Of a DNA stretch of 64,000 bases, positions 7,268 through 26,370 are shown piece by piece. Source of the stretch: Rhizobium sp. NXC24. GTDB taxonomy: Bacteria > Pseudomonadota > Alphaproteobacteria > Rhizobiales > Rhizobiaceae. Made by a program: the position numbers and the translations under genes. The stretch spans positions 62,001 to 126,000 of the forward strand of contig NZ_CP024314.1 in NCBI RefSeq assembly GCF_002944315.1, written 5' to 3'. Each line of letters opens with the position of its first letter. Positions within the stretch are counted from its first letter, which is position 1. The notes beneath the pieces were generated by a model. The model was not told the DNA's origin and did not search any database. It saw only the letters and a list, made by a program, of their open reading frames with translations.

Positions 7268-7279
7268 TTTCTTGCTTTA

Positions 7280-9301: not shown

Positions 9302-9341
9302 GCTCGGCTAACTATTCAAATCCCGCCAAAGCCGCACCGGA

Positions 9342-11009
9342 TTAGAATTCCTCCCAATTGGTAGCCGCGACCGCCAGGTTGCCTTGCGTCGCGTAGGCCT
9401 TGGCGAGTTTGGCTCCCAGCGCCCGTGCAGGAGATGCCGTGGGCATGTCGCTTTGCTTAGCTGAGCGAGCCCGGGATACCGATGCCTTGCCGATGTTGAA
9501 TTCACTGAGCATTGCAGCGATGCGACCGACCTCCAGCGTGAGTGCATGGCTGGCGGCGGTGGATTCCTCTACCATCGCGGCATTCTGCTGCGTGCCCTGA
9601 TCCATCGAGTTGACGGCTGTATTAATTTCCTGCAGGGCGGTTGCTTGCTCTGTGGATGCTCGAACGATCGCGCCGATATGCCGATCAATCTCCTTGACCT
9701 CGTCAGCGATGACCGTAAGCGCTTCTCCGGTTTCTCCAACAAGAGTCACGCCCGCCTTTACCTGCTCGCCCGAATTGTTGATCAGTTCTTTGATCTCCTT
9801 TGCGGCCTTGGCCGAGCGCTGGGCGAGTTCGCGAACCTCCTGCGCGACGACGGCAAAACCCTTACCTGCGTCGCCGGCTCGAGCCGCTTCGACACCGGCA
9901 TTCAGCGCCAGCAAGTTCGTCTGGAAGGCGATTTCGTCAATCACTCCGATAATATTCGAGATTTCCCGCGAAGAGCCGTCGATTGCACCCATTGCGGCGA
10001 CCGCTTGCCTCACGATGTCACCGGATTTTTCGGCGCCGATACGAGCCTTTGCAACCAGTTGTCCAGCTTCCTCGGCACGCCGGCTGGAATCCTTGACCGT
10101 GGTGGTGATTTCCTCAAGTGCAGCAGCGGTCTCCTCGATGGAGGCTGCCTGCTGTTCGGTACGCTTGGAAAGATCATCCGCAGCGGACCGAATTTCCTGT
10201 GAGCCAGAGTTGATCTGTGAAGCGGCACCATTGATTTGCTCGATCGTCGCCGACAACTGGTCAAGAGCGTTGTTGAAGTTGTCACGCAGAGCGTGATACG
10301 CCGCCGGCAGCTCGTCATCGATCCGGTAGCTGATATCCTTGGCGGCGATTGCCGCCATCGCTTTGCCGAAGCTGTCGCAGACGAGCTGGCGTTCCGCGTC
10401 GATCGCCTCGGCCTGAGCCTTCTGCTTTGCGATTTCAGCTTCATCGATATAGACCGAGATCGCCAAGTCCATGTCCAACATCACAGCCTTGACGAGACTG
10501 GCAAGTGCCTTGCCGAAGTCCGCACTCTTCATTGTTTTTCGTGAGAATATCCCGCCTTTGGGGAAGATTTCCTCGACGGCGCTCTTGATCAGATGGTCGA
10601 TAATGATGGCGTAGCCGCCAATGTACCATTGTGGCTCCAGGCCGATGCGGGCATGCACAGTGCCGATCGTACGAACCTTGCCGACATATTCCTCATTGAA
10701 ATTGCCATCGGCGATATTGTGCCAATGGCCCATCTGCGCACCCTTCGCCCGGGCGATGTTCTCCTCCGTGGAGAAAAAGCGGCTGACCTCTGGGCTCTTG
10801 CGCAATTGCGCATAGAACTTGTCCAGACCATGGGGCAGTTCGCGTTCGATCAAAGTTTTTAGGGATCGGATGCCAGCGCGACCGTCCTGATCGAGCTGCA
10901 TGAAGTCGAGGCGGCGTTCGACGTTCTGACGCCGGGTCTTTGCGCCGGCGGCGTCACCGTTGCCTGCGGGATTGGAGCTGTTGTTGGCATGCATGGAGCG
11001 ACTCGACAT
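9342..11009 (-). CDS. Globin-coupled methyl-accepting chemotaxis protein
   Basis: A 555-residue cytoplasmic chemoreceptor. Residues about 30-185 form a protoglobin-type sensor with the likely proximal haem ligand His119 (GTVHARIGL) followed by [12 protein letters not shown]-like linker (about 200-255) leads to a methyl-accepting domain with the conserved hairpin tip ([20 protein letters not shown]). No membrane helix is seen, as in HemAT-type aerotaxis receptors. The last five residues, NWEEF, are a CheR/CheB tether pentapeptide after a flexible linker. I start at the ATG at 11009, preceded by GAGG; an upstream TTG frame is unlikely. It probably signals oxygen, or nitric oxide, to the chemotaxis system; no che genes are nearby. 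Confidence 0.92.
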
Positions 11010-11316
11010 TCTCGACCTCGAAAACAATGGGCTTAAACCGCGATTGGGCACATACCTCAATCACATCGAAACCCGTCGTCATGTCGGCGCTGGCGTCCAT
11101 CCGCCCTTTCGATAAGCCCCAAATTTGGGCGATTTCCTTTATTTGGCGTTAACCAAAGTCAGATCCTCAAGGCACATCGCTAAAGTCTTCGCAAATCGGA
11201 TATTTTCTGCGCTTTTCGGATGCGATGATTTGGCGAATGCAGGGGCGCAGCGGCATATCTCTATGCGGCGCTAAGCGCACTCCGAAGAGGAGGCGGGATC
11301 GGGAAGGTCCGTCGCC
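11010..11316. other. Intergenic region between chemoreceptor and LuxR genes
   Basis: No convincing gene in these 307 bases. It must hold the chemoreceptor promoter (minus strand). A perfect 12-bp palindrome CCCAAATTTGGG lies at 11118-11129, about 110 bp upstream of the chemoreceptor ATG. No clear terminator after the luxR-type gene was found. Confidence 0.5.
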
Positions 11317-12042
11317 TCAGTTTATGAGGTTCCGGCGAATCGCTTCGGCGACCGCATGGGCGCGATTGGCCGCACCGAGTTTTTTCGTCGCGCTTTTCAG
11401 ATAGCTATTGATGGTTTCCGGTCGATAATCCGAAGCATCGGCGATTTCCTCACTCGTCAACCCTTTGCTGGCGAGTTCAAGGCTTCGCAACTCACCGTTC
11501 GTCAGACGAAGGACGCCGGCGGCGAAGCGATCCATCAAAGGCTTCGTGATTACCCGATGCAGCGGTTCGGCAAAGAAGAGGAGCAAATCCCGCTCGCTTG
11601 CTGTGAATTGTTTTTCTCTTGTGAAGCAGACGCCGCCGTAGACGACGCCATCTCTCGCCAATGGCACCTGCAAGCGTTGCCCGATCCTGTAAGCCCGCAG
11701 CAAATATTGAAGGCGTTGCGAGGGGGGCGAGATGTCAAAAGCTTCTTCGTCGCTCAGCGGCGTCGTTCGGTTCAGCGACTGGATGACGAGCGGGTCCGAT
11801 AGACCGAGCTTTTCTCCGAAGTAAGTATCGATATAAGCAGGCGGCATATCGGTATCGATGGAACGGCCCCGTCCAATCCGATACCCGGCGAGATCCAGCC
11901 CGCCGACAGCGATGTGGCGGAAATCGACCGCCTTCCTGAGCTGTTCCAGCAGTTCGCTGTCGCGTAGCTGTCTATGGGCGGGAACCTCGGAGAGATCCTT
12001 GAAATCGCCCAGGTATTTTATTGCAACACAACCCATCGTCAT
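11317..12042 (-). CDS. LuxR-family quorum-sensing regulator (solo)
   Basis: A 241-residue regulator. Residues about 20-165 form an autoinducer-binding domain (segments MPPAYIDTYFGEKLGLSDPL and YGGVCFTREKQFTASERD). The C-terminal LuxR helix-turn-helix spans about 175-235 (ELRSLELASKGLTSEEIAD, then NSYLKSATKKLGAANRAHAV). The size and order match acyl-homoserine-lactone receptors. No luxI-type synthase is in the window, so it is a LuxR solo here. It is transcribed alone; its targets are unknown. The convergent or adjacent chemoreceptor and diguanylate cyclase make a link to motility possible but unproven. Confidence 0.87.
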   Translation of the reverse strand: MTMGCVAIKYLGDFKDLSEVPAHRQLRDSELLEQLRKAVDFRHIAVGGLDLAGYRIGRGRSIDTDMPPAYIDTYFGEKLGLSDPLVIQSLNRTTPLSDEEAFDISPPSQRLQYLLRAYRIGQRLQVPLARDGVVYGGVCFTREKQFTASERDLLLFFAEPLHRVITKPLMDRFAAGVLRLTNGELRSLELASKGLTSEEIADASDYRPETINSYLKSATKKLGAANRAHAVAEAIRRNLIN

Positions 12043-12144: not shown

Positions 12145-12699
12145 TCACGCAAATTCGGCGGCCATGATCTCAAGTTCATGCCACAGACTGTCGGCAAATC
12201 CGCGCAGGACGAGGAGTTCGTAGCAATCCTCGCTGGTGCGGGCGAGGTTGGCGCCGATATGGCCGATCAGCGTCATCACGGCATGGTTGATGGGGAATTG
12301 ATCGTCATGCAGGTCCACGCCCGTACCCTTTGCCAGGAGCTGACGCACCTGCGGACCCCTGATGCGGATCCGGCTGCGTCCGTGCGTTTGGTCCACCAGA
12401 TAGGCGACTGTCGCCAGACGATCGGCGACGACATCAACGTCAAGAGCGCTGCCGGCAACCAAGAACCATTGTCCGGGACCGGAGTTTCTGAGGCTGAGAC
12501 CTTCTGTTTGCCCGATCGCTGCCAGAATGCCGGCCTCGGTAACAGCGCCGGGGCGGGCCAATAGCTGCAGGATCACACCGTCGGTGACCGCCTCCAGCGC
12601 CAGATTCCCGAGCACCTTTGGTTCCCCGACGCGAAGTGCCGGGCGGCGGATGAGTTCAAATTTGGTCATGGCTGCCTCAGATGCCGCGCGTTCAGACAT
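12145..12699 (-). CDS. soxG: Sarcosine oxidase gamma subunit / N-methylglutamate dehydrogenase subunit D
   Basis: A 184-residue small subunit of heterotetrameric sarcosine-oxidase-like enzymes. It carries the family segments GPGQWFLVAG and DQTHGRSRIRIRGPQVR; SoxG is distantly related to the aminomethyltransferase fold and helps bind folate-derived one-carbon units. The ATG at 12699 overlaps the end of the alpha-subunit gene by 8 bp, so translation is coupled. Last gene of the soxB-soxD-soxA-soxG order. In organisms with the N-methylglutamate pathway the equivalent gene is mgdD; sequence alone does not separate the two roles, but the neighbourhood favours mgdD. Confidence 0.88.
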   Translation of the reverse strand: MSERAASEAAMTKFELIRRPALRVGEPKVLGNLALEAVTDGVILQLLARPGAVTEAGILAAIGQTEGLSLRNSGPGQWFLVAGSALDVDVVADRLATVAYLVDQTHGRSRIRIRGPQVRQLLAKGTGVDLHDDQFPINHAVMTLIGHIGANLARTSEDCYELLVLRGFADSLWHELEIMAAEFA

Positions 12700-15655
12700 G
12701 GAGCTTCTCGTTTGCAGGATCGACAAAGACGGGACTGACGAGGCGTCCGGCGGTAAATTCGTTACGCAGGCCGTTCCAGATCTGCACCTCTTCACCATGG
12801 CGGGATGCGCCGCCCTTGACGAGGGCCAGGCCGATGGTGGAACCGACATGGGGCGAGAAGCAGCTCGAAGACACATAACCTTGGTCGTTTTCGAGCGTGG
12901 CCGCTGCGTCCTTCTTCAGAATATGTGCACCCGTCCTGAAGCTGACGGCCGGATCGAGCGGCACGACGCCGACCAGTTGCGGACGATCCGGATTGACTAG
13001 CCCCTCGCGCGCGACCATGTGCTTGCCGATGAAATCCTGCTTGGCCATGGACACCATCCTGCCGAAGCCGAGGTCGGCTGGGACGACGGTACCGTTGATC
13101 TCGTTATGGGTGACGTGCCCTTTCTCGATGCGCAGGACAGCCAGCGCCTCGATACCATAGGCGCAAATTCCACGGGCAGCGCCTGCCTGCATGACGAGAT
13201 CGGCAACGCTCTCGCCGAAATCTGCCGGCACGGCCAGTTCAAAGGCCAGCTCTCCGGAAAACGAGATGCGGAACAGCCGGCCTTTCAGTCGTCCGCCAAG
13301 CAGCGAAACCTCTTTTGCCGCCAGATATGGGAAGGCTTCATTGGACATGTCGTCATCGACGAGTTGCTGCAGCACGGCTCGCGACTTTGGCCCGGCGACC
13401 GCCATCTGCGCCCATTGGTCGGTGACCGACGCCAGCCGCACGTCGAGTTCCGGCCAAAGCGCCTGGGCGCAGAATTCGAGATGGTTCATGACACCTGCGG
13501 CATAGGCCGTGGTCGTCGTCATGAAATAGCGGTCCTCGGCAAGTCGGCTGGTCGTTCCGTCATCATATATAAAGCCGTCTTCGCGCAGCATCAGCCCGTA
13601 CCGAGCCTTACCGACCGGCAGCGTCAGAAAACCGTTGCAATAGACGCGATTGAGGAACTCCGCAGCGTCCGGCCCGCACACTTCGATCTTGCCGAGCATG
13701 GAGACATCGCAGATGCCGACATTCAGCCGGATATTCTTCACCTCGCGGTCGACGCTTTCGCGCCAGCCATTTTCCCCCGCCCGCGGGAACCAGGCGGAGC
13801 GATACCAAAGGCCCGTTTCGACGAAGGTCGCGCCGTTCTTCGCCGCCCAATCGTGCAGTGGCGACTTGCGCACCGGCTGGAAATGCTTCCCGTGCGAGGC
13901 TCCTGCCAGGGCGCCGAAGGAAACGGGCGTATAGAAGGGACGGAAGGTCGTGGTGCCGACCTCGGCCGGCGAAACACGCCGCGCCTCGGAGAGGAGGCCG
14001 ATGGCGTTGATGTTGGAAAGCTTGCCCTGATCGGTCGCCATGCCGTTGGTCGTATAGCGCTTGGCAAGCTCCACGTGACCATAGCCTTCCTGCACCGCAA
14101 GGCCGAGATCCTTCAGATGCACGTCGTTCTGGTAGTCGACGAAAGCCTTGCCGGTGATGCCGGGAATGGACCAGAGCGGCCTGGTCGGGGCTGGCACGGT
14201 TTCCCGCTCGACGACCGGGTTCTCGCTGACAGAATGGGAAAAGCCGAGGTCCGACAGTGCTGCGGCCGCAGCCTTCTGCCCGGACGCCATGGAGGCATGC
14301 AGCCCAAAGACACCTGCGGCCGAGCCCGCAAGCTCCAGATCCGCCAAGCCCTCGGGCGCGAGGAGGGCGGAATGTTCATCGGACCAACGCGGCTTGCCGC
14401 GGCGATGGCAGGCAAGGTGGATGATCGGCGAGAAGCCGCCTGACATGGCGAGACTGTCGACCGCGAGCCGCTCCGACTGCCCCTCGCGCCAGATGTCGAT
14501 CGCTTCGACTGCCTTGCCGCCATGCACGTTCGAGACAAAGCCGCCCCGCACCAGCCGGGCCTTGCCGGTATAGGCGATATGCGCATCACGGCGGCTGTCG
14601 ATGACCGCCGCCACCTCCATGCCGGCAGCCTCCAGATCGGCGGCGAGCGCATAGCCGCTGTCGTTGCTGGTGAAAACCGCCGTCTTCCTGCCCGGCGCAA
14701 CGCCATAGTGATTGAGATAGCTGCGCATGGCGCCGGCCATCATGACGCCGGGAATGTCGTTGCCGCCGAAGACCAGCGGCCGCTCTTCGGCACCCGTTGC
14801 CAGAATGGCCTTTTTTGCCGCAATGCGCCACAGGCGCTCGACCGGCAGATTTGCCAGAGGTGCGGCAACATGTTTCTGCACACGCTCCACGGCCCCGAAA
14901 ACCTGGCCGTCATACCAGCCGAATACCGTCGTGCGTGTCAAAAGCTGGACATTGGAAAGGCTCTCCAGTTCCGCAATCACGCCTGCGGCAAAGGAGGATG
15001 CCGGCAGTCCGCCGATCAGCGCCGTTTCGCTCAAGGCGTAGCCACCAAGCGCCGCATTTTCATCGACCAGGATTACCCGCGCTCCGGCCCGGCCCGCGGC
15101 AAGCGCCGCCATCAGGCCCGCGGCCCCAGCGCCGATCACCAGCAGATCGCAATGCGCCCAGCATTTCTCATAGGCATCCGGATCCGTTTCATGGGATGCC
15201 CTGCCGAGACCTGCCGCCTTGCGGATGAAGGGTTCGTAGACCTTCTCCCAGAATTTGCCCGGCCACATGAAGGTCTTGTAGTAGAAGCCGGCAGACAAAA
15301 AGGGTGAAAGCAGGCCATTGACCGCACCGATATCATGCTCCAGCGAGGGCCAGCGGTTTTGGCTCTTCGCTTCCAGGCCCTCATAGAGATCCTGCATGGT
15401 GGCGCGTGTATTGGGCTCGGTTCGCCCGCCGCGGCCGATGGTCATCAGCGCATTGGGTTCGGCCGCTCCAGCCGTCAGGATGCCGCGCGGGCGGTGATAT
15501 TTGAAACTGCGTCCAACCAGTTGCTGACCGTTGGCCAGCAAGGCCGAAGCAAGCGTATCACCCGCCAGACCCGTCATCGGCTTACCATCGAAGGTAAAGG
15601 ATAGCGCCTTCTCCCGTTTGATCAGGCCGCCTTTCGGAAGACGATAGGAGGTCAT
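12692..15655 (-). CDS. soxA: Sarcosine oxidase alpha subunit / N-methylglutamate dehydrogenase subunit C
   Basis: A 987-residue large subunit. Order of domains: an N-terminal ferredoxin-like fold (about 15-100) without iron-sulphur cysteines, a pyridine-nucleotide Rossmann region (LLVIGAGAAGLMAALAAGR near 172-190), and a C-terminal glycine-cleavage T-protein-like domain (about 600-980) that transfers the one-carbon unit to tetrahydrofolate. The substrate is a secondary amine, sarcosine or N-methylglutamate, oxidised by the beta subunit. It starts within 4 bp of the end of the delta gene. In the mgd nomenclature this is mgdC. Length is normal for the family (about 970-1000). Confidence 0.93.
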   Translation of the reverse strand: MTSYRLPKGGLIKREKALSFTFDGKPMTGLAGDTLASALLANGQQLVGRSFKYHRPRGILTAGAAEPNALMTIGRGGRTEPNTRATMQDLYEGLEAKSQNRWPSLEHDIGAVNGLLSPFLSAGFYYKTFMWPGKFWEKVYEPFIRKAAGLGRASHETDPDAYEKCWAHCDLLVIGAGAAGLMAALAAGRAGARVILVDENAALGGYALSETALIGGLPASSFAAGVIAELESLSNVQLLTRTTVFGWYDGQVFGAVERVQKHVAAPLANLPVERLWRIAAKKAILATGAEERPLVFGGNDIPGVMMAGAMRSYLNHYGVAPGRKTAVFTSNDSGYALAADLEAAGMEVAAVIDSRRDAHIAYTGKARLVRGGFVSNVHGGKAVEAIDIWREGQSERLAVDSLAMSGGFSPIIHLACHRRGKPRWSDEHSALLAPEGLADLELAGSAAGVFGLHASMASGQKAAAAALSDLGFSHSVSENPVVERETVPAPTRPLWSIPGITGKAFVDYQNDVHLKDLGLAVQEGYGHVELAKRYTTNGMATDQGKLSNINAIGLLSEARRVSPAEVGTTTFRPFYTPVSFGALAGASHGKHFQPVRKSPLHDWAAKNGATFVETGLWYRSAWFPRAGENGWRESVDREVKNIRLNVGICDVSMLGKIEVCGPDAAEFLNRVYCNGFLTLPVGKARYGLMLREDGFIYDDGTTSRLAEDRYFMTTTTAYAAGVMNHLEFCAQALWPELDVRLASVTDQWAQMAVAGPKSRAVLQQLVDDDMSNEAFPYLAAKEVSLLGGRLKGRLFRISFSGELAFELAVPADFGESVADLVMQAGAARGICAYGIEALAVLRIEKGHVTHNEINGTVVPADLGFGRMVSMAKQDFIGKHMVAREGLVNPDRPQLVGVVPLDPAVSFRTGAHILKKDAAATLENDQGYVSSSCFSPHVGSTIGLALVKGGASRHGEEVQIWNGLRNEFTAGRLVSPVFVDPANEKLHV

Positions 15656-15924
15656 GCAAGCACCTCCTTTCGTTCAGCAGCATCACGGCAATCATGGATC
15701 TCATGCGTGGCCGTATCGCGCGAAACCACAAGCCAGCGGCGGCACCCGGACGTGTGGTGCCAATATTCCTGGTAAGCGCCACGCGGATTGTCGCGCAGAT
15801 AGACATAATCGAACCATAGGTCCGCTCCGGCGTCGGCGGCGGGGCGCGGCAGGGCGGCGCCTTTCACAGTGAATTCTTCCTTCGGGCGAAGCCCGCAATG
15901 AGGGCAGGGAATACGGCTGGCCAT
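15652..15924 (-). CDS. soxD: Sarcosine oxidase delta subunit / N-methylglutamate dehydrogenase subunit B
   Basis: A 90-residue zinc-binding subunit. The CPHC pair at residues 6-9 and later His and Cys (HHTSGCRRW) are the usual zinc ligands of SoxD. The segment FDYVYLRDNPRGAYQEYWHH is typical of the family. It sits between the beta gene (21 bp upstream) and the alpha gene (4-bp overlap), the canonical B-D-A-G order of heterotetrameric sarcosine oxidases and of mgdABCD. Confidence 0.93.
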   Translation of the reverse strand: MASRIPCPHCGLRPKEEFTVKGAALPRPAADAGADLWFDYVYLRDNPRGAYQEYWHHTSGCRRWLVVSRDTATHEIHDCRDAAERKEVLA

Positions 15925-15945
15925 GTCATGTCGCTTTCGGAAAAA

Positions 15946-17196
15946 TCAGTGAAGGTTCGGCTGGGCGCCCTGGCCCTTTTCATCGATCATGTAGCCGCGC
16001 TGGAAGCGGTCGAGGCGGAACGCTCTCGCCGTTTCATGCGGCTCGCCGCGGGCAATCAGGTGGGCAAAGCAATAGCCCGACGCGGGCGTCGCTTTGAAAC
16101 CGCCATAACACCAGCCTGAGTTCAGATAGAGATTATCGAGATGCACCTTGTCGATGATCGGCGAGCCATCCATCGACATGTCCATGATGCCGCCCCAGGA
16201 CCGCAGCACACGGATGCGCGAGAGCGCCGGGATCATGGCCTTGCCGGCTTCCGCGACATGCTCGACCGTGGCCAGATTACCGCGTTGAGCATAGGAGTTG
16301 TAGCCGTCGATATCGCCGCCGAACACCAGGCCGCCCTTGTCGGATTGCGAGACATAGAAATGTCCGGCGCCGAAGGTGACAACGCCGTCGATGAATGGTT
16401 TCAGGCCCTCGGAAACGAAGGCCTGCAGCACGTGGCTCTCGATCGGCAGCTTCAGTCCGGCCATCTCCGCCACGCGTGACGAATTGCCGGCAGCAGCAAG
16501 CGCGAGCCTGCTGCAGGCGATGAAGCCGCGGCTGGTTTCCACCCCGACCGCCCTACCGTTTTCAAGGCGGATATCCGTCACCTCGCAATTCTGGATAATA
16601 TCGACGCCATGGCTGTCGGCGCCGCGGGCGTAACCCCAGGCGACAGCGTCATGGCGTACCGTGCCGCCACGCCGCTGCAGCAAGCCGCCCTGGACCGGGA
16701 AGCGGGCATTCTCGTAGTCGAGAAAGGGCAGCATGGTGCGAACTGCCGCGCGGTCCAGCAGCTCGGCATCGACGCCATGCAGGCGCATGGCGTTGCCGCG
16801 CCGCGTATAGGCATCGCGCTGGGCGTCGGAATGAAAGAGATTGAGAACGCCGCGCTGCGAGACCATGGCGTTAAAGTTGAAGTCCTGCTCCAGACCTTCC
16901 CATAGCTTCAGCGAGAACTCATAGAAGGGATTGTTGCCGGGCAGCAGATAGTTGGAGCGGATGATCGTGGTGTTTCGCCCGACATTGCCCGAGCCGATAT
17001 AGCCCTTTTCCAGCACGGCGACATTTCTGATTCCGAAGGTCTTCGACAGGTAGTAGGCCGTCGCCAGGCCATGTCCGCCGCCACCGACGATGATCACGTC
17101 ATAATGGGGTTTCGGCTCTGGCTGCCGCCAGTGAGCGGCCCAATTCCTGTTGCCACGAAGACCATTGAGGAAGATCGAAAGTGCCGAATACCGCAT
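15946..17196 (-). CDS. soxB: Sarcosine oxidase beta subunit / N-methylglutamate dehydrogenase subunit A
   Basis: A 416-residue flavoprotein. An FAD/Rossmann motif (DVIIVGGGGHGLATAYYL) begins near residue 33, followed by LEKGYIGSGNVGRN. His182 in GGTVRHDAVAWG is at the position of the covalent flavin histidine of SoxB. It oxidises the N-methyl group of sarcosine or N-methylglutamate. It is the first gene of the soxBDAG operon, divergent from the GlxA-type regulator with 94 bp between them. In the N-methylglutamate pathway this subunit is MgdA; the glxBCD and glnT genes across the divergent region support that reading. Confidence 0.92.
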   Translation of the reverse strand: MRYSALSIFLNGLRGNRNWAAHWRQPEPKPHYDVIIVGGGGHGLATAYYLSKTFGIRNVAVLEKGYIGSGNVGRNTTIIRSNYLLPGNNPFYEFSLKLWEGLEQDFNFNAMVSQRGVLNLFHSDAQRDAYTRRGNAMRLHGVDAELLDRAAVRTMLPFLDYENARFPVQGGLLQRRGGTVRHDAVAWGYARGADSHGVDIIQNCEVTDIRLENGRAVGVETSRGFIACSRLALAAAGNSSRVAEMAGLKLPIESHVLQAFVSEGLKPFIDGVVTFGAGHFYVSQSDKGGLVFGGDIDGYNSYAQRGNLATVEHVAEAGKAMIPALSRIRVLRSWGGIMDMSMDGSPIIDKVHLDNLYLNSGWCYGGFKATPASGYCFAHLIARGEPHETARAFRLDRFQRGYMIDEKGQGAQPNLH

Positions 17197-17231
17197 CCGT
17201 GTCCGCTCGATTTGTGAGACTGAAGGAAGGC

Positions 17232-17270
17232 TAGGCCAGGAATGCGATCAACAATTGCAGAATTAGGCCA
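17232..17270. promoter_or_regulatory. Direct repeats in the sox/glxA divergent region
   Basis: TAGGCCA occurs at 17232-17238 and 17264-17270, 32 bp apart (about three helical turns) in the 94-bp gap between soxB and the AraC-type regulator. Same-face direct repeats are what AraC-family regulators usually bind. Candidate only. Confidence 0.4.
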
Positions 17271-17290
17271 TTTCAGGATAAATTGAAGAC

Positions 17291-18265
17291 ATGCGTGATA
17301 ACAGCTCGTCCTCCACCCAACGCTACGGCTTCGCGCTGACCCCGAATTTCGCGCTGATGTCCTACGCATCGGCGACCGAGCCCTTGCGTGCTGCAAACCT
17401 GATTGCCCAGACCGGCCTCTATGAGGTCATCCCGCTTTCGGTCGACGGCAGGGCTGTCGCGTCCTCCTCCGGGTTTGCAATTCCCTGCGAAGACATTTCG
17501 GTCATCGGTGCGAGCTGCCACACGATCTTTGTCGTTGCCGGCGGCAATCCCGGCGACTGGAAGGATGCCGCAGGCCTGCATCCCGTGCTTCGCAGACTGG
17601 CTCGCCAGGGCGTGCGCATCGGCGGAATTTCCAGCGGCTCCTATCTTCTTGCCGCCGCCGGCCTGATGGATGGGCGCGATTTCACCATCCATTGGGAGCA
17701 TGCCCCGGCCATGCGCGAGGCCTTTCCCCATCTCTCCCCGCGGCAGGCGCGCTATGTGCTGGATGGCGACCGCATCACCTGCGGCGGCGGCGTGGCTCCG
17801 CTAGACATGATGCATGCCCTGATCGAAGGCAGGCTGGGAACGGCCTTTGCGAGACGGGTCAGCGACTGGTATCTCCACACGGCTGTGGCGGAGCCAACAG
17901 CACCGCAGCGCGGCTCTTCGAGCGAGCGGTTCGGCACGCATCATCCGGCCCTGATCACGGTTCTGGAAAAGATGGAAGCCACCATAGAACAGCCGATGGA
18001 TCGCCGGACGATGGCAAAGCTCGTCGGACTGAGCCCCCGTCATCTCGACCGCCTGTTTGCCGAACAGCTTGGTGTCAGCTTCCATGACAGCTATCATCGG
18101 ATTCGGCTCGATCATGCCCGCCGGCTGCTTGAACAAAGCCCTCTATCGATCTCCGAACTGGCTTTCGCCACTGGTTTCTCCAGCGCTTCGCATTTTTCGA
18201 GAGCCTTCAGACAACATTTTGGGCTGACGCCAAAATCCGCTAGAGCAATCCGCCGGACGCCGTAG
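17291..18265 (+). CDS. glxA: GlxA-type AraC regulator with DJ-1/PfpI domain
   Basis: A 324-residue regulator. The N-terminal half (about 10-190) is a DJ-1/PfpI-like domain (GGISSGSYLLAAAGLMDGR, CGGGVAPLDMMHALIEGR); the C-terminal part (about 215-320) is a double AraC helix-turn-helix (LVGLSPRHLDRLFAEQLG and ATGFSSASHFSRAFRQHFG). Such regulators control choline, carnitine, dimethylglycine or sarcosine catabolism. Here it stands between the divergent soxBDAG and glxBCD blocks and probably activates both in response to a methylated amine. I use the ATG at 17291. It is followed 31 bp later by the XRE-cupin gene. Confidence 0.88.
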   Translation: MRDNSSSSTQRYGFALTPNFALMSYASATEPLRAANLIAQTGLYEVIPLSVDGRAVASSSGFAIPCEDISVIGASCHTIFVVAGGNPGDWKDAAGLHPVLRRLARQGVRIGGISSGSYLLAAAGLMDGRDFTIHWEHAPAMREAFPHLSPRQARYVLDGDRITCGGGVAPLDMMHALIEGRLGTAFARRVSDWYLHTAVAEPTAPQRGSSSERFGTHHPALITVLEKMEATIEQPMDRRTMAKLVGLSPRHLDRLFAEQLGVSFHDSYHRIRLDHARRLLEQSPLSISELAFATGFSSASHFSRAFRQHFGLTPKSARAIRRTP

Positions 18266-18296
18266 AAAGCGATCCGCAGGCAGACAGGGAAGAGAA

Positions 18297-18968
18297 ATGA
18301 TGGCCAAGAACACCCAAAAAGAAGCGGCAGCAAGCAAGGCAGCTCTTGCACAAAATCCGCATGCTGTCCGCGAGCCGCGCGAAAACAATCTCGAGATGGC
18401 GATCGGTCATGAGGTCCGCGCCTACCGCAAGAAGCTCGGCATCACCGTGACCGATCTGGCGGCGGCAACCGATATGTCGGTGGGGATGCTGTCAAAAATC
18501 GAAAATGGCAATATTTCGCCTTCGCTATCAACTTTGCAGGCGCTTTCCAAGGCACTCGGCGTACCGCTCACGGCATTCTTCCGACGCTTTGAGGAGCCGC
18601 GTACCGCGATTTTCGTCAAGGCAGGTGAGGGCGTCAACATCGAGCGCCGCGGTACGCGCGCTGGCCATCAATACAGTCTTCTCGGCCATATCGACAACAA
18701 TAGCAGCGGCGTTACGGTCGAGCCCTATCTGATCACGCTCACCACGGAATCAGACGTCTTTCCAACCTTTCAGCATGAGGGAATGGAGTTCCTCTATATG
18801 CTGGCGGGCGAGGTCGTTTATCGGCACGCGGACACGCTCTACTCCATGCAGCCGGGTGACAGCCTTTTCTTCGATGCTGACGCGCCGCATGGGCCGGAGG
18901 AATTGGTCAAATTGCCGGCCCGTTATCTTTCGATCATCTCCTATCCGCAAAAAGCGAACCATGAGTAA
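18297..18968 (+). CDS. XRE-family regulator with C-terminal cupin
   Basis: A 223-residue transcription factor: an N-terminal lysine/arginine-rich tail, an HTH_3 domain (about 38-95, VTDLAAATDMSVGMLSKIENG), and a cupin_2 domain (about 140-218, FQHEGMEFLYMLAGEVVY ... DADAPHGPEE). Members such as PuuR-type proteins sense small amines or amino acids and usually repress an adjacent catabolic operon. It lies between glxA and glxB, so a role in methylamine or amino acid nitrogen control is likely. GGGAAGAGAA precedes an ATGATG start; either ATG may be used. Confidence 0.88.
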   Translation: MMAKNTQKEAAASKAALAQNPHAVREPRENNLEMAIGHEVRAYRKKLGITVTDLAAATDMSVGMLSKIENGNISPSLSTLQALSKALGVPLTAFFRRFEEPRTAIFVKAGEGVNIERRGTRAGHQYSLLGHIDNNSSGVTVEPYLITLTTESDVFPTFQHEGMEFLYMLAGEVVYRHADTLYSMQPGDSLFFDADAPHGPEELVKLPARYLSIISYPQKANHE

Positions 18969-18973
18969 TTTTG

Positions 18974-19022
18974 CTTAAAAAGAAAAATTTATTCTTTTAA
19001 GTTGAAATACGGCATACCGTAT
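18974..19022 (+). promoter_or_regulatory. Two adjacent inverted repeats upstream of glxB
   Basis: CTTAAAAAGAA (18974-18984) pairs with TTCTTTTAAG (18992-19001) with one extra A. Next comes the palindrome ATACGG-CATA-CCGTAT (19007-19022), overlapping CATAC-C-GTATG (19013-19023) and a TATGAT hexamer (19020-19025) that could be a -10 element. Likely operator region of the glxBCD operon; the AT-rich repeat could also act as a terminator after the XRE gene. Confidence 0.5.
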
Positions 19023-19064
19023 GATAGCCCTCCATTGGCAAACGAATGGAGGGTGTTGGAAGTT

Positions 19065-19967
19065 ATGTGCGGCATTGTTGGATTGTTTTTGAAAGACCGG
19101 ACGCTCGAGCCGAAACTCGGCGAGATGCTGTCCGATATGCTGATAACAATGACCGACCGCGGGCCTGATTCCGCCGGCATTGCGATCTACGGCGCCCCAT
19201 CCGAAGGAAGGACGAAGCTTACGCTGCAGTCGGCATCGCCGGAGACTGCCTTCGCCGGGCTTCGGGGCGAATTGGAGAGCGCCGGCCTGTCCGCGACCGT
19301 CACCGTCAAAAGCACGCACGCGGTCGTCGAAACCAATGGCAGCGCTGGCGAGCTGCGTGCGTTTCTGGCGGCCAGTCACCCGGATATCCGCGTCATGGGC
19401 TCCGGCGACAGCGTCGAAATCTACAAGGAAACTGGCCTTCCGAAGGAAGTGGTGGAGCGCTTCAACGTTCGCGCCATGAGCGGTTCGCACGGCATCGGCC
19501 ATACCCGCATGGCCACGGAATCGGCTGTAACCACACTGGGCGCTCATCCCTTTTCGACCGGGGCTGACCAATGCCTCGTGCACAACGGCTCGCTCTCCAA
19601 TCACAACAATCTTCGCCGCGAACTCATTCGGGAAGGCATGACCTTCGAAACGCAGAATGACTCCGAAGTGGCGGCTGCCTACCTGACAGCGGAAATGGCG
19701 AAGGGCAAAGACCTCGGCGAGGCCCTGACCGGCGCGCTCGACGACCTCGACGGCTTTTTTACGTTCGTCGTCGGCACGAAGTCCGGCTTCGGCGTCGTCC
19801 GTGATCCGATCGCTTGCAAGCCCGCAGTCATGGCCGAGACAGATCAATACGTCGCCTTCGGATCGGAGTACCGCGCGCTGGTCAATTTGCCAGGCATCGA
19901 GAGCGCACGCGTCTGGGAGCCGGAACCGGCCACCGTCTATTTCTGGGATCACGAAAAGGCCGCCTGA
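19065..19967 (+). CDS. glxB: Class II glutamine amidotransferase subunit (GltB N-terminal domain-like); N-methylglutamate synthase subunit A
   Basis: A 300-residue Ntn-type glutamine amidotransferase. I start at the ATG at 19065 because the family needs Met-Cys-Gly: Cys2 becomes the N-terminal nucleophile after Met removal (MCGIVGLFLKD). HTRMATESAV and HNGSLSNHNNLRREL are the glutamine-site motifs. An upstream in-frame ATG (19002) would bury the cysteine. It matches the first domain of glutamate synthase large subunit as a separate protein, followed by the GXGXG (glxC) and FMN (glxD) parts. In methylamine users this trio is mgsABC, making N-methylglutamate. Confidence 0.9.
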   Translation: MCGIVGLFLKDRTLEPKLGEMLSDMLITMTDRGPDSAGIAIYGAPSEGRTKLTLQSASPETAFAGLRGELESAGLSATVTVKSTHAVVETNGSAGELRAFLAASHPDIRVMGSGDSVEIYKETGLPKEVVERFNVRAMSGSHGIGHTRMATESAVTTLGAHPFSTGADQCLVHNGSLSNHNNLRRELIREGMTFETQNDSEVAAAYLTAEMAKGKDLGEALTGALDDLDGFFTFVVGTKSGFGVVRDPIACKPAVMAETDQYVAFGSEYRALVNLPGIESARVWEPEPATVYFWDHEKAA

Positions 19968-20001
19968 AGCCCGCCCTTCACGACAAGAAAGTTTTAGCTC
20001 C

Positions 20002-20688
20002 ATGCCTGTCTTCGATCTTTCTCACACGCCGCTGCGCGAACTCAACAGCGCCCTGCACAATCTCGGTGCCGGCGCCAACGACACCGCCTTCGAGGTGGTC
20101 AATCCGCGCGGCAGCCATGCGGTTGCCGTCGGCATCGATGCTCCCGTCACCGTCGAGGTCAGGGGCTCGGTCGGCTATTACTGCGCCGGCATGAATGATG
20201 GCGGCGCGGTCACGGTCCATGGCTCGGCCGGTCCGGGCGTTGCCGAAAACATGATGTCCGGTACCGTCGTGATCGAAGGCGATGCCAGCCAGTATGCGGG
20301 CGCCACCGGCCGCGGCGGTTTGCTCGTCATCAAGGGCAACGCCGCCTCGCGCTGCGGCATCTCGATGAAGGGCATCGACATCGTCGTTCACGGTTCCATC
20401 GGTCACATGTCCGCCTTCATGGGCCAGTCTGGCCATCTCGTCGTTCTCGGCGATGCCGGAGAGGCGCTCGGCGACAGCCTCTACGAAGCCAAGCTTTTCG
20501 TGCGCGGGTCCGTCAAGAGCCTGGGAACCGACTGCATCGAAAAGGAGATGCGGCCCGAGCATCTCGAAAAGCTTTCTGAGCTTCTCGACAAGGCAGGCGT
20601 CAGCGGCGTCCGACCGGAAGAATTCAAGCGCTACGGCTCCGCCCGCAAGCTCTACAACTTCAATATCGACAACGCTGACGCGTACTGA
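20002..20688 (+). CDS. glxC: Glutamate synthase GXGXG-domain subunit; N-methylglutamate synthase subunit B
   Basis: A 228-residue right-handed beta-helix protein corresponding to the C-terminal GXGXG domain of glutamate synthase. Regular glycine-spaced repeats run from about residue 50 to 170 (GSVGYYCAGMNDGG, GATGRGGLLVIKG, GSIGHMSAFMGQSGHLVVLG). The domain is structural and joins amidotransferase and FMN parts. The ATG at 20002 lies 34 bp after glxB; sequence upstream in that frame is not protein-like. Equivalent to MgsB in the N-methylglutamate pathway. Confidence 0.9.
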   Translation: MPVFDLSHTPLRELNSALHNLGAGANDTAFEVVNPRGSHAVAVGIDAPVTVEVRGSVGYYCAGMNDGGAVTVHGSAGPGVAENMMSGTVVIEGDASQYAGATGRGGLLVIKGNAASRCGISMKGIDIVVHGSIGHMSAFMGQSGHLVVLGDAGEALGDSLYEAKLFVRGSVKSLGTDCIEKEMRPEHLEKLSELLDKAGVSGVRPEEFKRYGSARKLYNFNIDNADAY

Positions 20689-20702
20689 GGCGAGGAAAAA
20701 TC

Positions 20703-22031
20703 ATGAGCTATCACAACCCGTTCACCCCGCCGCGTAAGTCCGCAACCTTCGACGACTACACGCTTGCTGAAATTCGCCGCGCGGCGGCGACCGGCATCTA
20801 CGATATCCGCGGCGCCGGCACCAAGCGCAAGGTTCCGCATTTCGACGACCTGCTGTTTCTCGGCGCCTCGATCTCGCGTTACCCGCTGGAAGGCTATCGC
20901 GAGAAGTGCGATACTTCCGTGGTGCTTGGCACGCGGTTTGCCAAGAAGCCGATCCACCTCAAGACACCAATCACGATCGCCGGCATGAGTTTTGGCGCTC
21001 TGTCGGGCAATGCCAAGGAAGCCCTCGGCCGCGGCGCAACGATTGCCGGCACATCGACCACTACGGGCGACGGCGGCATGACAGACGAGGAGCGCGGCCA
21101 CAGCCAGACGCTAGTCTACCAGTACCTGCCGTCGCGCTATGGCATGAACCCGAAGGACCTGCGCCGGGCCGATGCGATCGAAGTGGTCGTAGGCCAGGGC
21201 GCCAAGCCGGGCGGCGGCGGCATGCTGCTCGGCCAGAAGATTTCGGATCGCGTCGCGAACATGCGCAACCTGCCCAAGGGCATCGACCAGCGCTCGGCCT
21301 GCCGCCACCCGGACTGGACCGGTCCCGATGATCTGGAAATCAAAATCCTCGAACTGCGCGAGATCACCGACTGGGAAAAGCCGATCTATGTGAAGGTCGG
21401 CGGCGCCCGCCCCTATTACGATACGGCGCTGGCCGTGAAGGCTGGCGCCGACGTGGTGGTGCTGGACGGCATGCAGGGCGGCACGGCGGCGACCCAGGAT
21501 GTCTTCATCGAAAATGTCGGGATGCCGACGCTCGCCTGTATTCGTCCGGCCGTGCAGGCTCTGCAGGACCTCGGCATGCACCGCAAGGTGCAACTGATCG
21601 TCTCCGGCGGCATCCGCTCCGGCGCCGATGTCGCCAAGGCCCTGGCGCTTGGTGCGGACGCTGTCGCCATCGGCACGGCAGCCCTCGTCGCTATCGGCGA
21701 CAACGACCCGAAGTGGGAGGAGGAATATCGCAAGCTCGGCACGACCGCAGGAGCCTATGACGACTGGCACGAAGGCAAGGATCCGGCCGGGATCACGACC
21801 CAGGATCCGGAACTTGCCGCCCGTCTCGACCCGGTCGCGGCCGGCCGGCGCCTCGCCAACTACCTCAAGGTCATGACCCTCGAGGCGCAGACGATTGCCC
21901 GCGCCTGCGGCAAGAACAAGCTTCACAACCTTGAGCCGGAAGACCTCTGCGCGCTGACCATGGAAGCAGCGGCCATGGCCCAGGTGCCGCTCGCCGGCAC
22001 CAACTGGTACCCGGGTAAGGGCGGGTTCTAA
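20703..22031 (+). CDS. glxD: Glutamate synthase FMN-domain subunit; N-methylglutamate synthase subunit C
   Basis: A 442-residue (beta/alpha)8 FMN protein matching the synthase domain of glutamate synthase. Visible motifs are the K-rich substrate segment (GQGAKPGGGGMLLGQKIS near 165-182), GGTAATQDVFIENVG near 260, the phosphate-binding VSGGIRSGADVAKALALGADAVAIGTAAL near 300, and a C-terminal Cys-rich segment (ARACGKNKLHN ... EDLCAL). AGGAAAAATC precedes the ATG, 14 bp after glxC. Equivalent to MgsC. A strong terminator follows. Confidence 0.9.
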   Translation: MSYHNPFTPPRKSATFDDYTLAEIRRAAATGIYDIRGAGTKRKVPHFDDLLFLGASISRYPLEGYREKCDTSVVLGTRFAKKPIHLKTPITIAGMSFGALSGNAKEALGRGATIAGTSTTTGDGGMTDEERGHSQTLVYQYLPSRYGMNPKDLRRADAIEVVVGQGAKPGGGGMLLGQKISDRVANMRNLPKGIDQRSACRHPDWTGPDDLEIKILELREITDWEKPIYVKVGGARPYYDTALAVKAGADVVVLDGMQGGTAATQDVFIENVGMPTLACIRPAVQALQDLGMHRKVQLIVSGGIRSGADVAKALALGADAVAIGTAALVAIGDNDPKWEEEYRKLGTTAGAYDDWHEGKDPAGITTQDPELAARLDPVAAGRRLANYLKVMTLEAQTIARACGKNKLHNLEPEDLCALTMEAAAMAQVPLAGTNWYPGKGGF

Positions 22032-22036
22032 CACCG

Positions 22037-22077
22037 AATGGCCGCGTCCTGCTCCCAGGGATGCGGCCATTTTCCTT
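22037..22077 (+). terminator. Terminator/attenuator between glxD and glnT
   Basis: Perfect 9-bp arms AATGGCCGC (22037-22045) and GCGGCCATT (22063-22071) followed by a T-rich stretch (TTTCCTTT, from 22070). It sits 6 bp after the glxD stop and before the glnT start, so glnT either has its own promoter or is reached by partial read-through. Confidence 0.75.
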
Positions 22078-22115
22078 TCAACATGTGTCTCAATCCATAA
22101 AAACAGGGGAACTAC

Positions 22116-23423
22116 GTGACACAGGATCTTTCAAACTTTGCCGCCGAGCGCGGCATAAAATATTTTATGATCAGCTACACCGACCTGTTCGGCGCCCAGC
22201 GCGCCAAGCTCGTGCCGGCCGAAGCGATCGCCGACATGCAGAAGGATGGTGCCGGCTTTGCCGGTTTCGCCACCTGGCTCGACCTGACGCCGGCGCATCC
22301 GGATCTCTTCGCGATCCCCGACGCATCCTCCGTCATCCAGCTTCCGTGGAAGAAGGATGTTGCCTGGGTCGCGGCCGATTGCGTCATGGAAGACCAGCCG
22401 GTCGCCCAGGCGCCGCGGGTGGTGCTGAAGAAACTGGTCGCGGAAGCAGCGGAAATGGGGCTTCGCGTGAAGACCGGCGTCGAGCCGGAATTTTTCCTGA
22501 TCTCGGCGGACGGCGAGAAGATCTCCGACGAATTCGACAATGCGGAAAAGCCCTGTTACGACCAGCAGGCCCTGATGCGCCGCTATGACGTCATCGCCGA
22601 AATCTGCGACCATATGCTGGCGCTCGGCTGGAAGCCGTACCAGAACGACCATGAAGACGCCAACGGCCAGTTCGAGATGAACTGGGAATACGACGACGCC
22701 CTGAAGACGGCCGACAAGCATTCCTTCTTCAAATTCATGGTCAAGTCGGTTGCGGAAAAGCATGGCCTGCGCGCCACCTTCATGCCCAAGCCGTTCAAGG
22801 GCCTGACCGGCAATGGCTGCCATGCCCATATCTCGGTCTGGGACCTCGACGGCAAGGTCAATGCCTTTGCCGACAAGGAAATGCCGTTCGGCCTTTCCGC
22901 CAAGGGCAAGACCTTCCTCGGCGGCATCATGAAACACGCCTCGGCGCTTGCCGCCGTCACCAATCCGACGGTAAATTCCTATAAGCGGATCAACGCGCCA
23001 CGGACGATTTCCGGTGCGACTTGGGCGCCGAACACCGTGACCTGGACCGGCAATAACCGCACCCACATGGTTCGCGTACCTGGCCCCGGCCGCTTCGAGC
23101 TTCGCTTGCCCGATGGCGCCGTCAACCCCTATCTGCTGCAGGCCATCATCATCGCGGCCGGCCTGAGCGGTCTCAAGAGCAACGCCGATCCGGGCGCCCA
23201 CTACGACATCGACATGTACAAGGATGGTCACACGGTCACGGATGCGCCCAAGCTGCCGCTCAATCTCCTCGATGCGCTGCGCGCCTATGAAGAAGACGAA
23301 GGGCTCCAGACCGCGCTCGGCAAGGAGTTTTCCGCGGCCTATCTCAAGCTCAAGCATGGCGAATGGAACGCCTATTGCTCGCAGTTCACGAGCTGGGAAC
23401 ACCAGACCACGCTCGACGTCTGA
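22116..23423 (+). CDS. glnT: Type III glutamine synthetase-like; candidate gamma-glutamylmethylamide synthetase
   Basis: A 435-residue glutamine-synthetase-fold ligase of the GlnT/GmaS group. Catalytic motifs seen: GVEPEFFLI (metal ligands, about 125-133), NDHEDANGQFEMNW (about 172-185), GNGCHAHIS (about 228-236) and NRTHMVRVPGPGRFELRLPDGAVNP. It joins ammonia or methylamine to glutamate with ATP. The start is GTG at 22116 after CAGGGGAAC. Placement right after glxBCD (mgsABC-like), opposite soxBDAG (mgd-like) and before purU favours gamma-glutamylmethylamide synthetase (GmaS); GlnT-type glutamine synthetase is the alternative, and the two are close relatives. Confidence 0.87.
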   Translation: MTQDLSNFAAERGIKYFMISYTDLFGAQRAKLVPAEAIADMQKDGAGFAGFATWLDLTPAHPDLFAIPDASSVIQLPWKKDVAWVAADCVMEDQPVAQAPRVVLKKLVAEAAEMGLRVKTGVEPEFFLISADGEKISDEFDNAEKPCYDQQALMRRYDVIAEICDHMLALGWKPYQNDHEDANGQFEMNWEYDDALKTADKHSFFKFMVKSVAEKHGLRATFMPKPFKGLTGNGCHAHISVWDLDGKVNAFADKEMPFGLSAKGKTFLGGIMKHASALAAVTNPTVNSYKRINAPRTISGATWAPNTVTWTGNNRTHMVRVPGPGRFELRLPDGAVNPYLLQAIIIAAGLSGLKSNADPGAHYDIDMYKDGHTVTDAPKLPLNLLDALRAYEEDEGLQTALGKEFSAAYLKLKHGEWNAYCSQFTSWEHQTTLDV

Positions 23424-23448
23424 TCCGTCCCTCCCAGGGCGCAACTGG

Positions 23449-23477
23449 TCCCGGATCGCTCCGGGACTTTCTTTTTC
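23449..23477 (+). terminator. Intrinsic terminator after glnT
   Basis: GTCCCGGA (23449-23456), loop TCGC, TCCGGGAC (23461-23468), followed by TTTCTTTTT. A near-ideal terminator 25 bp after the glnT stop. purU downstream (23502) would then depend on read-through or an unseen promoter. Confidence 0.85.
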
Positions 23478-23501
23478 CCGTGATATGAAGGACCTCCTCC
23501 G

Positions 23502-24383
23502 ATGAAATTCGTGCTGACCGTTGCCTGCCCAACCACCCGTGGCATCGTCGCTGCGATCTCCGGCTATCTCGCGAGCCAGGGGTGCTACATCATCGACAGC
23601 TCGCAGTTTGACGACCTGGAGAACGGCCTATTTTTCATGCGCATTTCCTTCCTGTCCGAAGAAGGCAGGGACCGGCCGGAGCTTGCCGACGGCTTTGCCG
23701 CGATCGCCGACAAGTTCAGCATGACCTTCGACATCCATGACGCCGAGGAGCGCATGAAGGTCGTCCTTATGGTCTCGCGCTTCGGCCACTGCCTGAACGA
23801 CCTGCTCTATCGCTGGCGCATCGGCGCCCTGCCGATCGACATCGTCGCGGTCGTGTCGAACCATCTCGACTATCAGAAACTGGTGGTCAACCACGACATT
23901 CCTTTTTTCCATGTGCCGGTCACCAAGGCCAACAAGCCGGATGCGGAAGCTCGGTTGCTGCAGATCGTCCAAGACACAAAGGCCGATCTGGTAGTGCTTG
24001 CCCGCTACATGCAGGTCCTGTCGAATGCGCTCTGCCGGGAGATGTCCGGTCGGATCATCAATATCCACCACTCCTTCCTGCCGAGCTTCAAGGGCGCCAA
24101 CCCTTACAAGCAGGCCTACGAGCGTGGCGTGAAGCTGATCGGCGCAACGGCGCACTACGTCACCGCCGATCTCGACGAGGGTCCTATCATCGAGCAGGAC
24201 GTCGCCCGCATCACCCATGCGCAGTCGGCGGAGGACTATGTCTCGATCGGCCGTGACGTGGAAAGCCAGGTGCTGGCACGGGCCATCCATGCCCATATCC
24301 ACCACCGCATCTTCATCAACGGCAACCGCACGGTCGTCTTCCCGGCAAGCCCCGGCTCCTATGCCTCCGAGCGCATGGGGTGA
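23502..24383 (+). CDS. purU: Formyltetrahydrofolate deformylase
   Basis: A 293-residue enzyme: N-terminal ACT-like regulatory domain (about 1-80), then a formyltransferase-type catalytic domain (MVSRFGHCLNDLLYRW near 88; IINIHHSFLPSFKGA near 185; TADLDEGPIIEQD near 223) with the Asn-His-Asp catalytic set of PurU. It hydrolyses 10-formyl-THF to formate and THF. Next to a one-carbon-producing N-demethylation pathway it would recycle folate by releasing the oxidised methyl group as formate. GAAGGA precedes the ATG. Confidence 0.93.
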   Translation: MKFVLTVACPTTRGIVAAISGYLASQGCYIIDSSQFDDLENGLFFMRISFLSEEGRDRPELADGFAAIADKFSMTFDIHDAEERMKVVLMVSRFGHCLNDLLYRWRIGALPIDIVAVVSNHLDYQKLVVNHDIPFFHVPVTKANKPDAEARLLQIVQDTKADLVVLARYMQVLSNALCREMSGRIINIHHSFLPSFKGANPYKQAYERGVKLIGATAHYVTADLDEGPIIEQDVARITHAQSAEDYVSIGRDVESQVLARAIHAHIHHRIFINGNRTVVFPASPGSYASERMG

Positions 24384-24675: not shown

Positions 24676-25530
24676 TTAGAGCTTACCCTTCCAGGGCACG
24701 AGGAAAGCTTCCAGAAAGCGAATGGCGGCCGAGAAGGCGAAGGCGCAGATTGCGATGATGCCAATGCCCACGAAGACGACGTCGGTCGCCAGGAACTGCG
24801 ACGCTGACATGATCATGAAGCCGATCCCGCGTGTGGAAGCGATCAATTCGGCGGCGACCAGCGTGCCCCAGCCGACGCCAAGCGCAATTCGGATGCCGGT
24901 GAGAATCTCGGGCAGGGCGGACGGCAGCACGATGTCGATGAAGAGCTGCAGCCGGCTTGCGCCCAGCGAACGCGCTGCATTGACGCGCTCGATCGGGAGC
25001 GAACGAACGCCCGCCTGGGCCGAGAGACAGATCGGCGCGAACATCGCAAGCACAAGCAGCGTGATCTTCGACGTTTCGCCGATGCCGAGCCAGATGATCA
25101 TCAGCGGCAGGTAAGAGAGGGGCGGCAGCGGCCAGTAGAACTCGATCGGCGCATCCAGCACCCCCTTTGCCCAGCGGTTCAAACCCATGAGCAATCCGAG
25201 CGGAATGCCGGCGGAGATGGCGATGAAGGCTGCGACCACGATGCGGAACAGGCTTGCAAAGACATGCTCGGAAAGCGACGCTCCGGCATAACCGTCGCGA
25301 TAGATGACACCGATTTGCGTCAGCACTTCGCCCGGACGCGGCAGGAAGAGGTGGGAAACAACACCGAGCGCGGATACGAGCCACCACAACAGCAATATGG
25401 CCAGGGCGGTAACAGTGCTGATCAAGACTGTGGGCCTCTCCCCGGCACCGAAGCTCGCCATCTTCACCAGCTTGACCTGGCGATCCTCTCTGTACGCCGC
25501 AACCGGCGAGGCTTGGACTATATCGCTCAT
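24676..25530 (-). CDS. tauC: Taurine/sulfonate-type ABC transporter permease
   Basis: A 284-residue inner membrane permease of the TauC/SsuC family. Five or six membrane helices are seen, with the ATPase-contacting EAA loop near residues 175-200 ([27 protein letters not shown]). It overlaps the ATPase gene by 4 bp. It is the last gene of the tauA-tauB-tauC unit. The family also takes alkanesulfonates, nitrate or thiamine precursors, so the substrate rests on the binding protein. Confidence 0.9.
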
Positions 25531-26315
25531 GCGGCACTCCTGAAATCTTCGCTGCTATGGAGGATGGCGCGGATCTCCTCGCGCAGCTCGGCAAATTCCG
25601 GCGACGCCTTGATGGCGCGGGCATCGCCGGTTTCGGCGAAGCGGCGGACGAAATCGAGATCGAAGCGCGCAACGACGCGCCCCGGCCGAGGTGACATGAC
25701 CAGGACCTGCGTGCCCAGGAACAAGGCCTCTTCGATCGAATGCGTGATGAAGAAAACCTTCTTTGCCGTCTTATTCCAGACGGAAACCAGCAGCTCTTGC
25801 ATCTGCTCGCGTGTCAGGCTGTCGAGCGCGCCAAATGGTTCGTCCATCAGCAGGATGTCGGGATTGGTCGCGAGCGCGCGTGCGATACCGACCCGCTGCC
25901 GCATGCCGCCCGACAGCTCATAGGGAAAGGCGCCGGCGAATTCGTCGAGACCGACGAGCCGCAGCAGTTCCAAGGCACGCGCTTGCCGTTCCTTCCGGTT
26001 GACGCCGGCGAATTTCAGGCCGAGCGCGACATTGTCGACAACGGACTTCCATGGCAGCAGCGAGTCTTTCTGAAAGACGACGCCGCGATCGGCACCCGGC
26101 CGTGCGACTGCGCGGCCATCGAGTGTTATCCGGCCATCGGAAAGCGGAAGGAAACCGGCAATCGCGTTGAGAAGGGTGGATTTGCCGCATCCCGAGGCTC
26201 CGAGTGCGACGACGAAGCCGCGTTCGGGAATATCGAAGGAAACGCGATCGAGCGCGTGGACGGTCCGCCCGTCACGGGCTGCGAAGAAAACGCTGGCGTG
26301 ATCGACTTTAAGCAT
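25527..26315 (-). CDS. tauB: Taurine/sulfonate-type ABC transporter ATPase
   Basis: A 262-residue ATPase. Walker A GASGCGKS near residue 38, signature [15 protein letters not shown] near 133, Walker [14 protein letters not shown] near 155, and the H-loop [10 protein letters not shown] near 190 are all intact. The start codon lies about 55 bp after the tauA stop, with a long hairpin between. Drives import with tauC and tauA. Confidence 0.91.
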
Positions 26316-26333
26316 GTTGGCGCTCGCGGGTTC

Positions 26334-26362: not shown

Positions 26363-26370
26363 AGGGAGGA

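Follow-up and report, generated by a model that had tools for sequence, protein, structure and literature searches.

The window analysed here is a stretch of 64,000 nucleotides of Rhizobium sp. NXC24, on a 2.38-Mb contig (C4) of a 7.30-Mb genome in four contigs. Between positions 12145 and 24383 it contains nine enzyme genes and two regulator genes, every frame of which is open and each of which has a family match (Table 1). The order is soxBDAG on the minus strand, followed on the plus strand by the AraC and XRE-cupin regulators and glxBCD–glnT–purU. A first-pass annotation, made from the letters of the window, had described such a sox, glx, glnT and purU block around a regulator pair, and all of these genes were found intact at that place. 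The GlnT and SoxB proteins are 100% identical to copies on a 2.26-Mb plasmid of Rhizobium sp. CB3060.

Table 1 Positions, proposed products and family matches of the genes in the block
Gene	Position	Strand	Proposed product	Family matches
soxG (mgdD-like)	12145..~12669	-	gamma subunit of the proposed N-methylglutamate dehydrogenase; start uncertain, read from sequence	TIGR01375, 103.8 bits (below the NCBIfam cut-off of 144); PF04268, over the Pfam cut-off
soxA (mgdC-like)	12692..15655	-	alpha subunit; 2Fe-2S, FAD and folate-binding (GCV_T) domains	TIGR01372, 1464 bits (cut-off 1164); PF13510, PF17806, PF01571, PF08669
soxD (mgdB-like)	15652..15924	-	delta subunit	TIGR01374, 112.5 bits (under the NCBIfam cut-off of 116.5); PF04267, 102.6 bits (passes Pfam)
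soxB (mgdA-like)	15946..17196	-	flavin subunit	TIGR01373, 728 bits (cut-off 529)
AraC-family regulator (GlxA/GbdR-like)	17291..18265	+		NF052371, 257 bits (cut-off 480); PF12833, PF01965
XRE-cupin regulator	18297..18968	+		PF01381, PF07883
glxB (mgsA-like)	19065..19967	+	class II glutamine amidotransferase subunit of the proposed N-methylglutamate synthase; starts MCGIVG	PF13522, PF13537
glxC (mgsB-like)	20002..20688	+	GXGXG subunit; start read from sequence	PF01493
glxD (mgsC-like)	20703..22031	+	FMN-binding glutamate-synthase-like subunit	PF01645, 294.6 bits
glnT (predicted gmaS)	22116..23423	+	predicted gamma-glutamylmethylamide synthetase	TIGR03105 (type III glutamate-ammonia ligase), 680 bits (cut-off 470)
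purU	23502..24383	+	formyltetrahydrofolate deformylase	TIGR00655, 341 bits (cut-off 286)

The four sox subunits are all present and in the order known for MgdABCD, and three split glutamate-synthase-like subunits (PF13522, PF01493 and PF01645) adjoin the predicted gmaS, as for MgsABC. Directly past purU, a taurine-type ABC transporter (tauA, tauB and tauC) is encoded on the minus strand at 24676–27384; some relatives have dimethylamine monooxygenase genes at this position. Searches of the window with Rfam at the gathering score and for tRNAs gave no match.

Phylogeny of GlnT and SoxBDAG

The closest solved relative of GlnT is 7cql (620 bits, with 275 of 427 aligned residues identical), which we take to be the Rhodovulum gamma-glutamylmethylamide synthetase (GmaS) described below; glutamine synthetases score 232 bits or less. 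The published account of the Rhodovulum enzyme lists its ligand and catalytic residues and notes Trp300 and Ala48 where glutamine synthetase conserves Glu and Asp (PMC7948447). All 23 named residues were located in 7cql, and all 23 are identical in the GlnT of the window, among them the Trp and Ala found in place of the glutamine-synthetase Glu and Asp. The glutamine synthetases 8ool and 7tdp each have 13 of these residues, and the five other Pfam glutamine-synthetase matches of the genome have 13 to 17, neither the Trp nor Asp177 occurring in any of them; the count is 22 for 9qur, a second solved relative, which bears the name glutamate-methylamine ligase. In the GlnT tree, a branch with an SH-aLRT value of 99 (no bootstrap) sets apart 24 GmaS-type rows, 7cql among them. 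The five other glutamine-synthetase-family genes of the genome group apart, and 9qur adjoins the GmaS-type rows. Branches among the glutamine synthetases are long, so we use the GmaS grouping alone; 23 loci were taken for this tree, and L145 yielded no full row. The first-pass annotation had proposed a phylogeny of the glnT product as a check on its reading, and the outcome agrees with it: given the tree and the 23 residues, we reject a true glutamine synthetase. On this evidence, the protein named GlnT is a predicted GmaS.

Three soxB genes of the genome exceed the family cut-off: that of the window, that of a second Mgd-like operon (L096) and that of a sarcosine-oxidase-like operon (L095). 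In a maximum-likelihood SoxB tree of 97 rows, all 42 gmaS-linked rows and the window fall in one 70-row clade with support of 100/98, and the crystallized sarcosine oxidases 2gag and 1vrq sit with the paralogue L095 outside it. The tree comprises 95 loci and the 2 crystal chains and draws on 16 of the 80 named loci; short, duplicate and other loci were skipped (L001–L006, L087–L094, L097–L099, L111, L113–L128, L183–L188 and L199–L201). Among 12 short loci, 11 were labelled as gmaS-linked by genome coordinates and L193 by glxD alone, as its stretch stops before glnT. For the remaining 28 members of this clade, the sequence examined contains no gmaS. A SoxA tree, built from 53 of 83 rows with no crystal chain, unites its 21 gmaS-linked rows within a clade of 38 (SH-aLRT 99) that excludes L095.

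At 27 SoxB positions, one residue is common to at least 90% of the 42 gmaS-linked rows and missing from nine rows of the sarcosine-oxidase clade; several of these positions presumably line the pocket. His182 of the window SoxB aligns with His173 of 2gag_B, which we take to carry the covalent flavin, so this His is kept. Most of the pocket changes are shared by a 10-row group and L147, 11 rows in all, which fall outside the 70-row clade and show no gmaS in the sequence examined. The changes are therefore no proof of specificity for N-methylglutamate, and we dropped them as a stand-alone marker.

The SoxB and SoxA trees support the assignment of the window soxBDAG as MgdABCD, a candidate N-methylglutamate dehydrogenase, and lead us to reject sarcosine oxidase as its main reading. 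Both the equation of soxBDAG with mgdABCD and the SoxA comparison had been put forward in the first-pass annotation; they hold on the grouping of SoxB with gmaS-linked homologues, apart from the crystallized enzymes, and on the corresponding position of SoxA, apart from L095 in a tree without a crystal chain. Operons of the window type, in the 29-row SoxB clade of the window, also occur at L167 (G036) and L168 (G070), in genomes that have no GlnT match at E 1e-100.

Conservation of the block and its predicted role

The 80 named loci that we compared are the best 80 by GlnT similarity rather than a random sample. Of these, 58 have soxA, soxB, glxBCD and glnT in a single locus, 54 with the same divergent order and an AraC regulator, and chance proximity is therefore unlikely. 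The genes glxBCD and glnT occur together in 78 of these best 80, and 14 of them have dmmA and dmmB-like genes (dimethylamine monooxygenase) within the locus; 57 extend at least 5.5 kb past glnT. On annotated plasmids from R. beringeri and Paracoccus yeei, dmmA and dmmB-like genes are likewise encoded near the block, and similar blocks are found in Agrobacterium genomes (L023 and L025). The block is common in rhizobia.

GlnT was detected in 30 of 101 sampled genomes of the family (E 1e-100). GlxD at 84% identity or more is present in 29 of these 30 and in none of the other 71 (p = 1.7e-24); the exception, G065, has GlnT but GlxD relatives of only 52–54%. SoxB of the wider 70-row clade (at least 69% identity, a threshold set among the matches listed, which reach down to about 51%) occurs in 28 of the 30 GlnT genomes, G020 and G099 being the two without it, and in 16 of the 71 without GlnT. 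As a side observation, G065 encodes a diverged glxBCD set, 35–42% identical, with an XRE regulator and soxBDAG as neighbours (L174, G065:C387, about 2990–8000). Diverged sets of this kind are also present in G056, G066, G082 and G087, and GlxD relatives of 52–54% also occur in three GlnT-less genomes, G056, G082 and G087.

We conclude that the block very probably encodes the N-methylglutamate pathway, the reading that the first-pass annotation had proposed and that the GmaS residues, the SoxB, SoxA and GlnT trees and the conserved loci support. Gene content, residues, phylogeny, synteny and co-occurrence are the basis of this conclusion, from which we infer the reactions, the inducer and a capacity to use methylamine as a source of nitrogen at least. 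GlnT (GmaS) would join methylamine to glutamate using ATP, and GlxBCD (MgsABC) would convert the resulting gamma-glutamylmethylamide to N-methylglutamate. SoxBDAG (MgdABCD) would then oxidize N-methylglutamate back to glutamate, passing the methyl carbon to tetrahydrofolate, and the amine nitrogen would join the glutamate pool. FolD, presumed to act next, would produce formyl-tetrahydrofolate, from which PurU would free formate for oxidation by a formate dehydrogenase encoded elsewhere in the genome, where an alpha subunit scores above its cut-off. PurU matches above the cut-off number five in the genome, and the matched part of one of them contains an in-frame TAG. In Aminobacter, gmaS, mgsABC, mgdABCD, folD, purU and fdh are listed together (PMC8235418). 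Use of methylamine as a nitrogen source is the least certain part of the reading, and our confidence in the whole is slightly tempered, because in Methylobacterium extorquens DM4 GmaS is reported to be essential for methylamine as a carbon source, not as a nitrogen source (PMC6237917). For Methyloversatilis, GmaS has been regarded as dispensable (PMC3160333).

The AraC-type regulator probably responds to a product of the pathway by turning on both divergent operons. In Ruegeria, the AraC regulator TmaR, encoded beside mgd, is reported to control gmaS and mgd and to be needed for growth with methylamine as nitrogen source (PMC13390433). Regulators of the TmaR type are defined as AraC proteins beside mgd with more than 44% identity to Ruegeria TmaR. 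The window gene has the position beside mgd and the AraC domain of this type, and its product is 45% identical to the regulators that adjoin soxBDAG in L067 and L190, a comparison with those proteins rather than with Ruegeria TmaR. Its best score is against the GbdR model, yet below the cut-off of that model. We regard it as probably a TmaR-type activator of the block.

The family names and the GbdR score could instead suggest that soxBDAG encodes an ordinary sarcosine oxidase that serves in betaine breakdown, is controlled by a GbdR-like regulator and sits beside glx–glnT by accident, and the occurrence of window-type soxBDAG at L167 and L168, and of wider-clade SoxB in 16 of 71 genomes, all without GlnT, would fit this. 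We consider it unlikely, given that SoxB groups with gmaS-linked homologues away from the crystal chains and L095, that SoxA is likewise separate from L095, that the divergent arrangement recurs in 54 of the best 80 named loci and that two Aminobacter plasmids carry glxBCD–glnT–soxBDAG all in one direction. Hardly credible is the view of glnT and glxBCD as a backup glutamine synthetase III and glutamate synthase for ammonia assimilation, which would agree with the NCBIfam name (type III glutamate-ammonia ligase) and the Pfam glutamate-synthase domains. The replacement of Glu and Asp by Trp and Ala and the GmaS-like state of all 23 named residues oppose it, as does the reported preference of the solved GmaS, with a Km of 27 µM for methylamine and 8.7 mM for ammonium (PMC7948447).

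The solved GmaS is reported to accept ethylamine as well (Km of 58 µM; PMC7948447), and the block might serve this or another small amine through the same chemistry, a reading that overlaps with a methylamine pathway. A DmmA search of the genome of the window, run with no positive control alongside, gave no match, which would be in keeping with another amine. Against this, 14 of the best 80 named loci include genes for dimethylamine monooxygenase, an enzyme that yields methylamine (PMC13390433), and the folate-binding domain that SoxA retains would suit a one-carbon unit; we give an alternative amine only a slim chance. A search for the methylamine dehydrogenase small subunit gave no match in the genome, but the control genomes gave none either.

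Known systems and a second Mgd-like operon

The block is a further member of an already described pathway, and the reading itself is not new. It has the same eight pathway genes as the locus of M. extorquens DM4, a methylotroph that uses methylamine carbon, with mgsABC–gmaS in this order and mgdABCD divergent in both (PMC6237917); unlike DM4, the window has two regulators between the operons and purU after glnT. As in the TMA cluster of Ruegeria pomeroyi, gmaS–mgs and mgd operons are present and an AraC-type regulator adjoins mgdABCD, whereas tmm, tdm and dmm are further genes of Ruegeria (PMC13390433); the DmmA search of the window genome found no match, and an NCBIfam scan of the genes neighbouring the block showed none of these. 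For SAR11, the same reading was printed in 2011 for genes with the same names, glnT, glxBCD and soxBDAG (PMC3160333). SAR11 has two soxBDAG paralogues, the roles of which were left undecided then, and both operons lie away from glxBCD–glnT by locus number, unlike in the window; the text consulted of that account holds no SoxB tree sorted by gmaS linkage (PMC3160333). Our SoxB tree offers a means of sorting soxBDAG paralogues, the question left by that work. In the annotated plasmid records examined, the genes still bear their older names (sarcosine oxidase, FMN-binding glutamate synthase, type III glutamate-ammonia ligase), and use of methylamine by rhizobia is thus easily missed. Agrobacterium tumefaciens, a member of the same family, is said, in work by Chen from 2010, to use methylamine as a nitrogen source.

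The new wrinkle is the second Mgd-like soxBDAG operon in the same genome (L096, G000:C1:3007000-3026999), at 6294–11352 of that stretch. Its SoxB is 75% identical to that of the window and lies in a 9-row clade beside the 29-row clade of the window, inside the 70-row clade, although the fork that joins the two is weak (92/48). None of the nine loci is gmaS-linked in the stretch seen. LivM- and LivH-like genes (branched-chain amino-acid transporter) are present in eight of the nine, with Liv-type genes adjoining the operon at L096 itself, and six encode a protein that combines an oxidase with an aminomethyltransferase (808 residues at L096); by its architecture, we take this protein to resemble dimethylglycine dehydrogenase. 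Whereas glnT and glxD each have one close copy in the genome, Mgd-like soxBDAG has two, and a knockout of the window mgd/sox genes could hence be masked by the second operon and mislead.

We also searched for SoxB in genomes in which the gmaS–mgs locus lacks soxBDAG, taking 14 of the 15 long named loci of this kind (L066 was omitted) together with G020 and G099, and keeping new SoxB rows only above 60% identity. Among the 14 named genomes, two carry a window-type SoxB elsewhere, and in 11 the L096 type is the only Mgd-like SoxB found. The L096 type may therefore supply the last step; in these 11 relatives, either it is the last enzyme or the pathway ends otherwise. We tentatively suggest, as a possibility short of an even chance, that the L096 soxBDAG is a chromosomal N-methyl-amino-acid dehydrogenase able to complete the methylamine pathway in trans, which would make the pathway modular rather than a fixed block. 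Methylobacterium phyllostachyos (L086) has GmaS and Mgs genes and no SoxB match at E 1e-60. The sole SoxB of G020, which also has GmaS and Mgs, is sarcosine-oxidase-like, and G099 carries one outer-group SoxB and one that is sarcosine-oxidase-like by identity.
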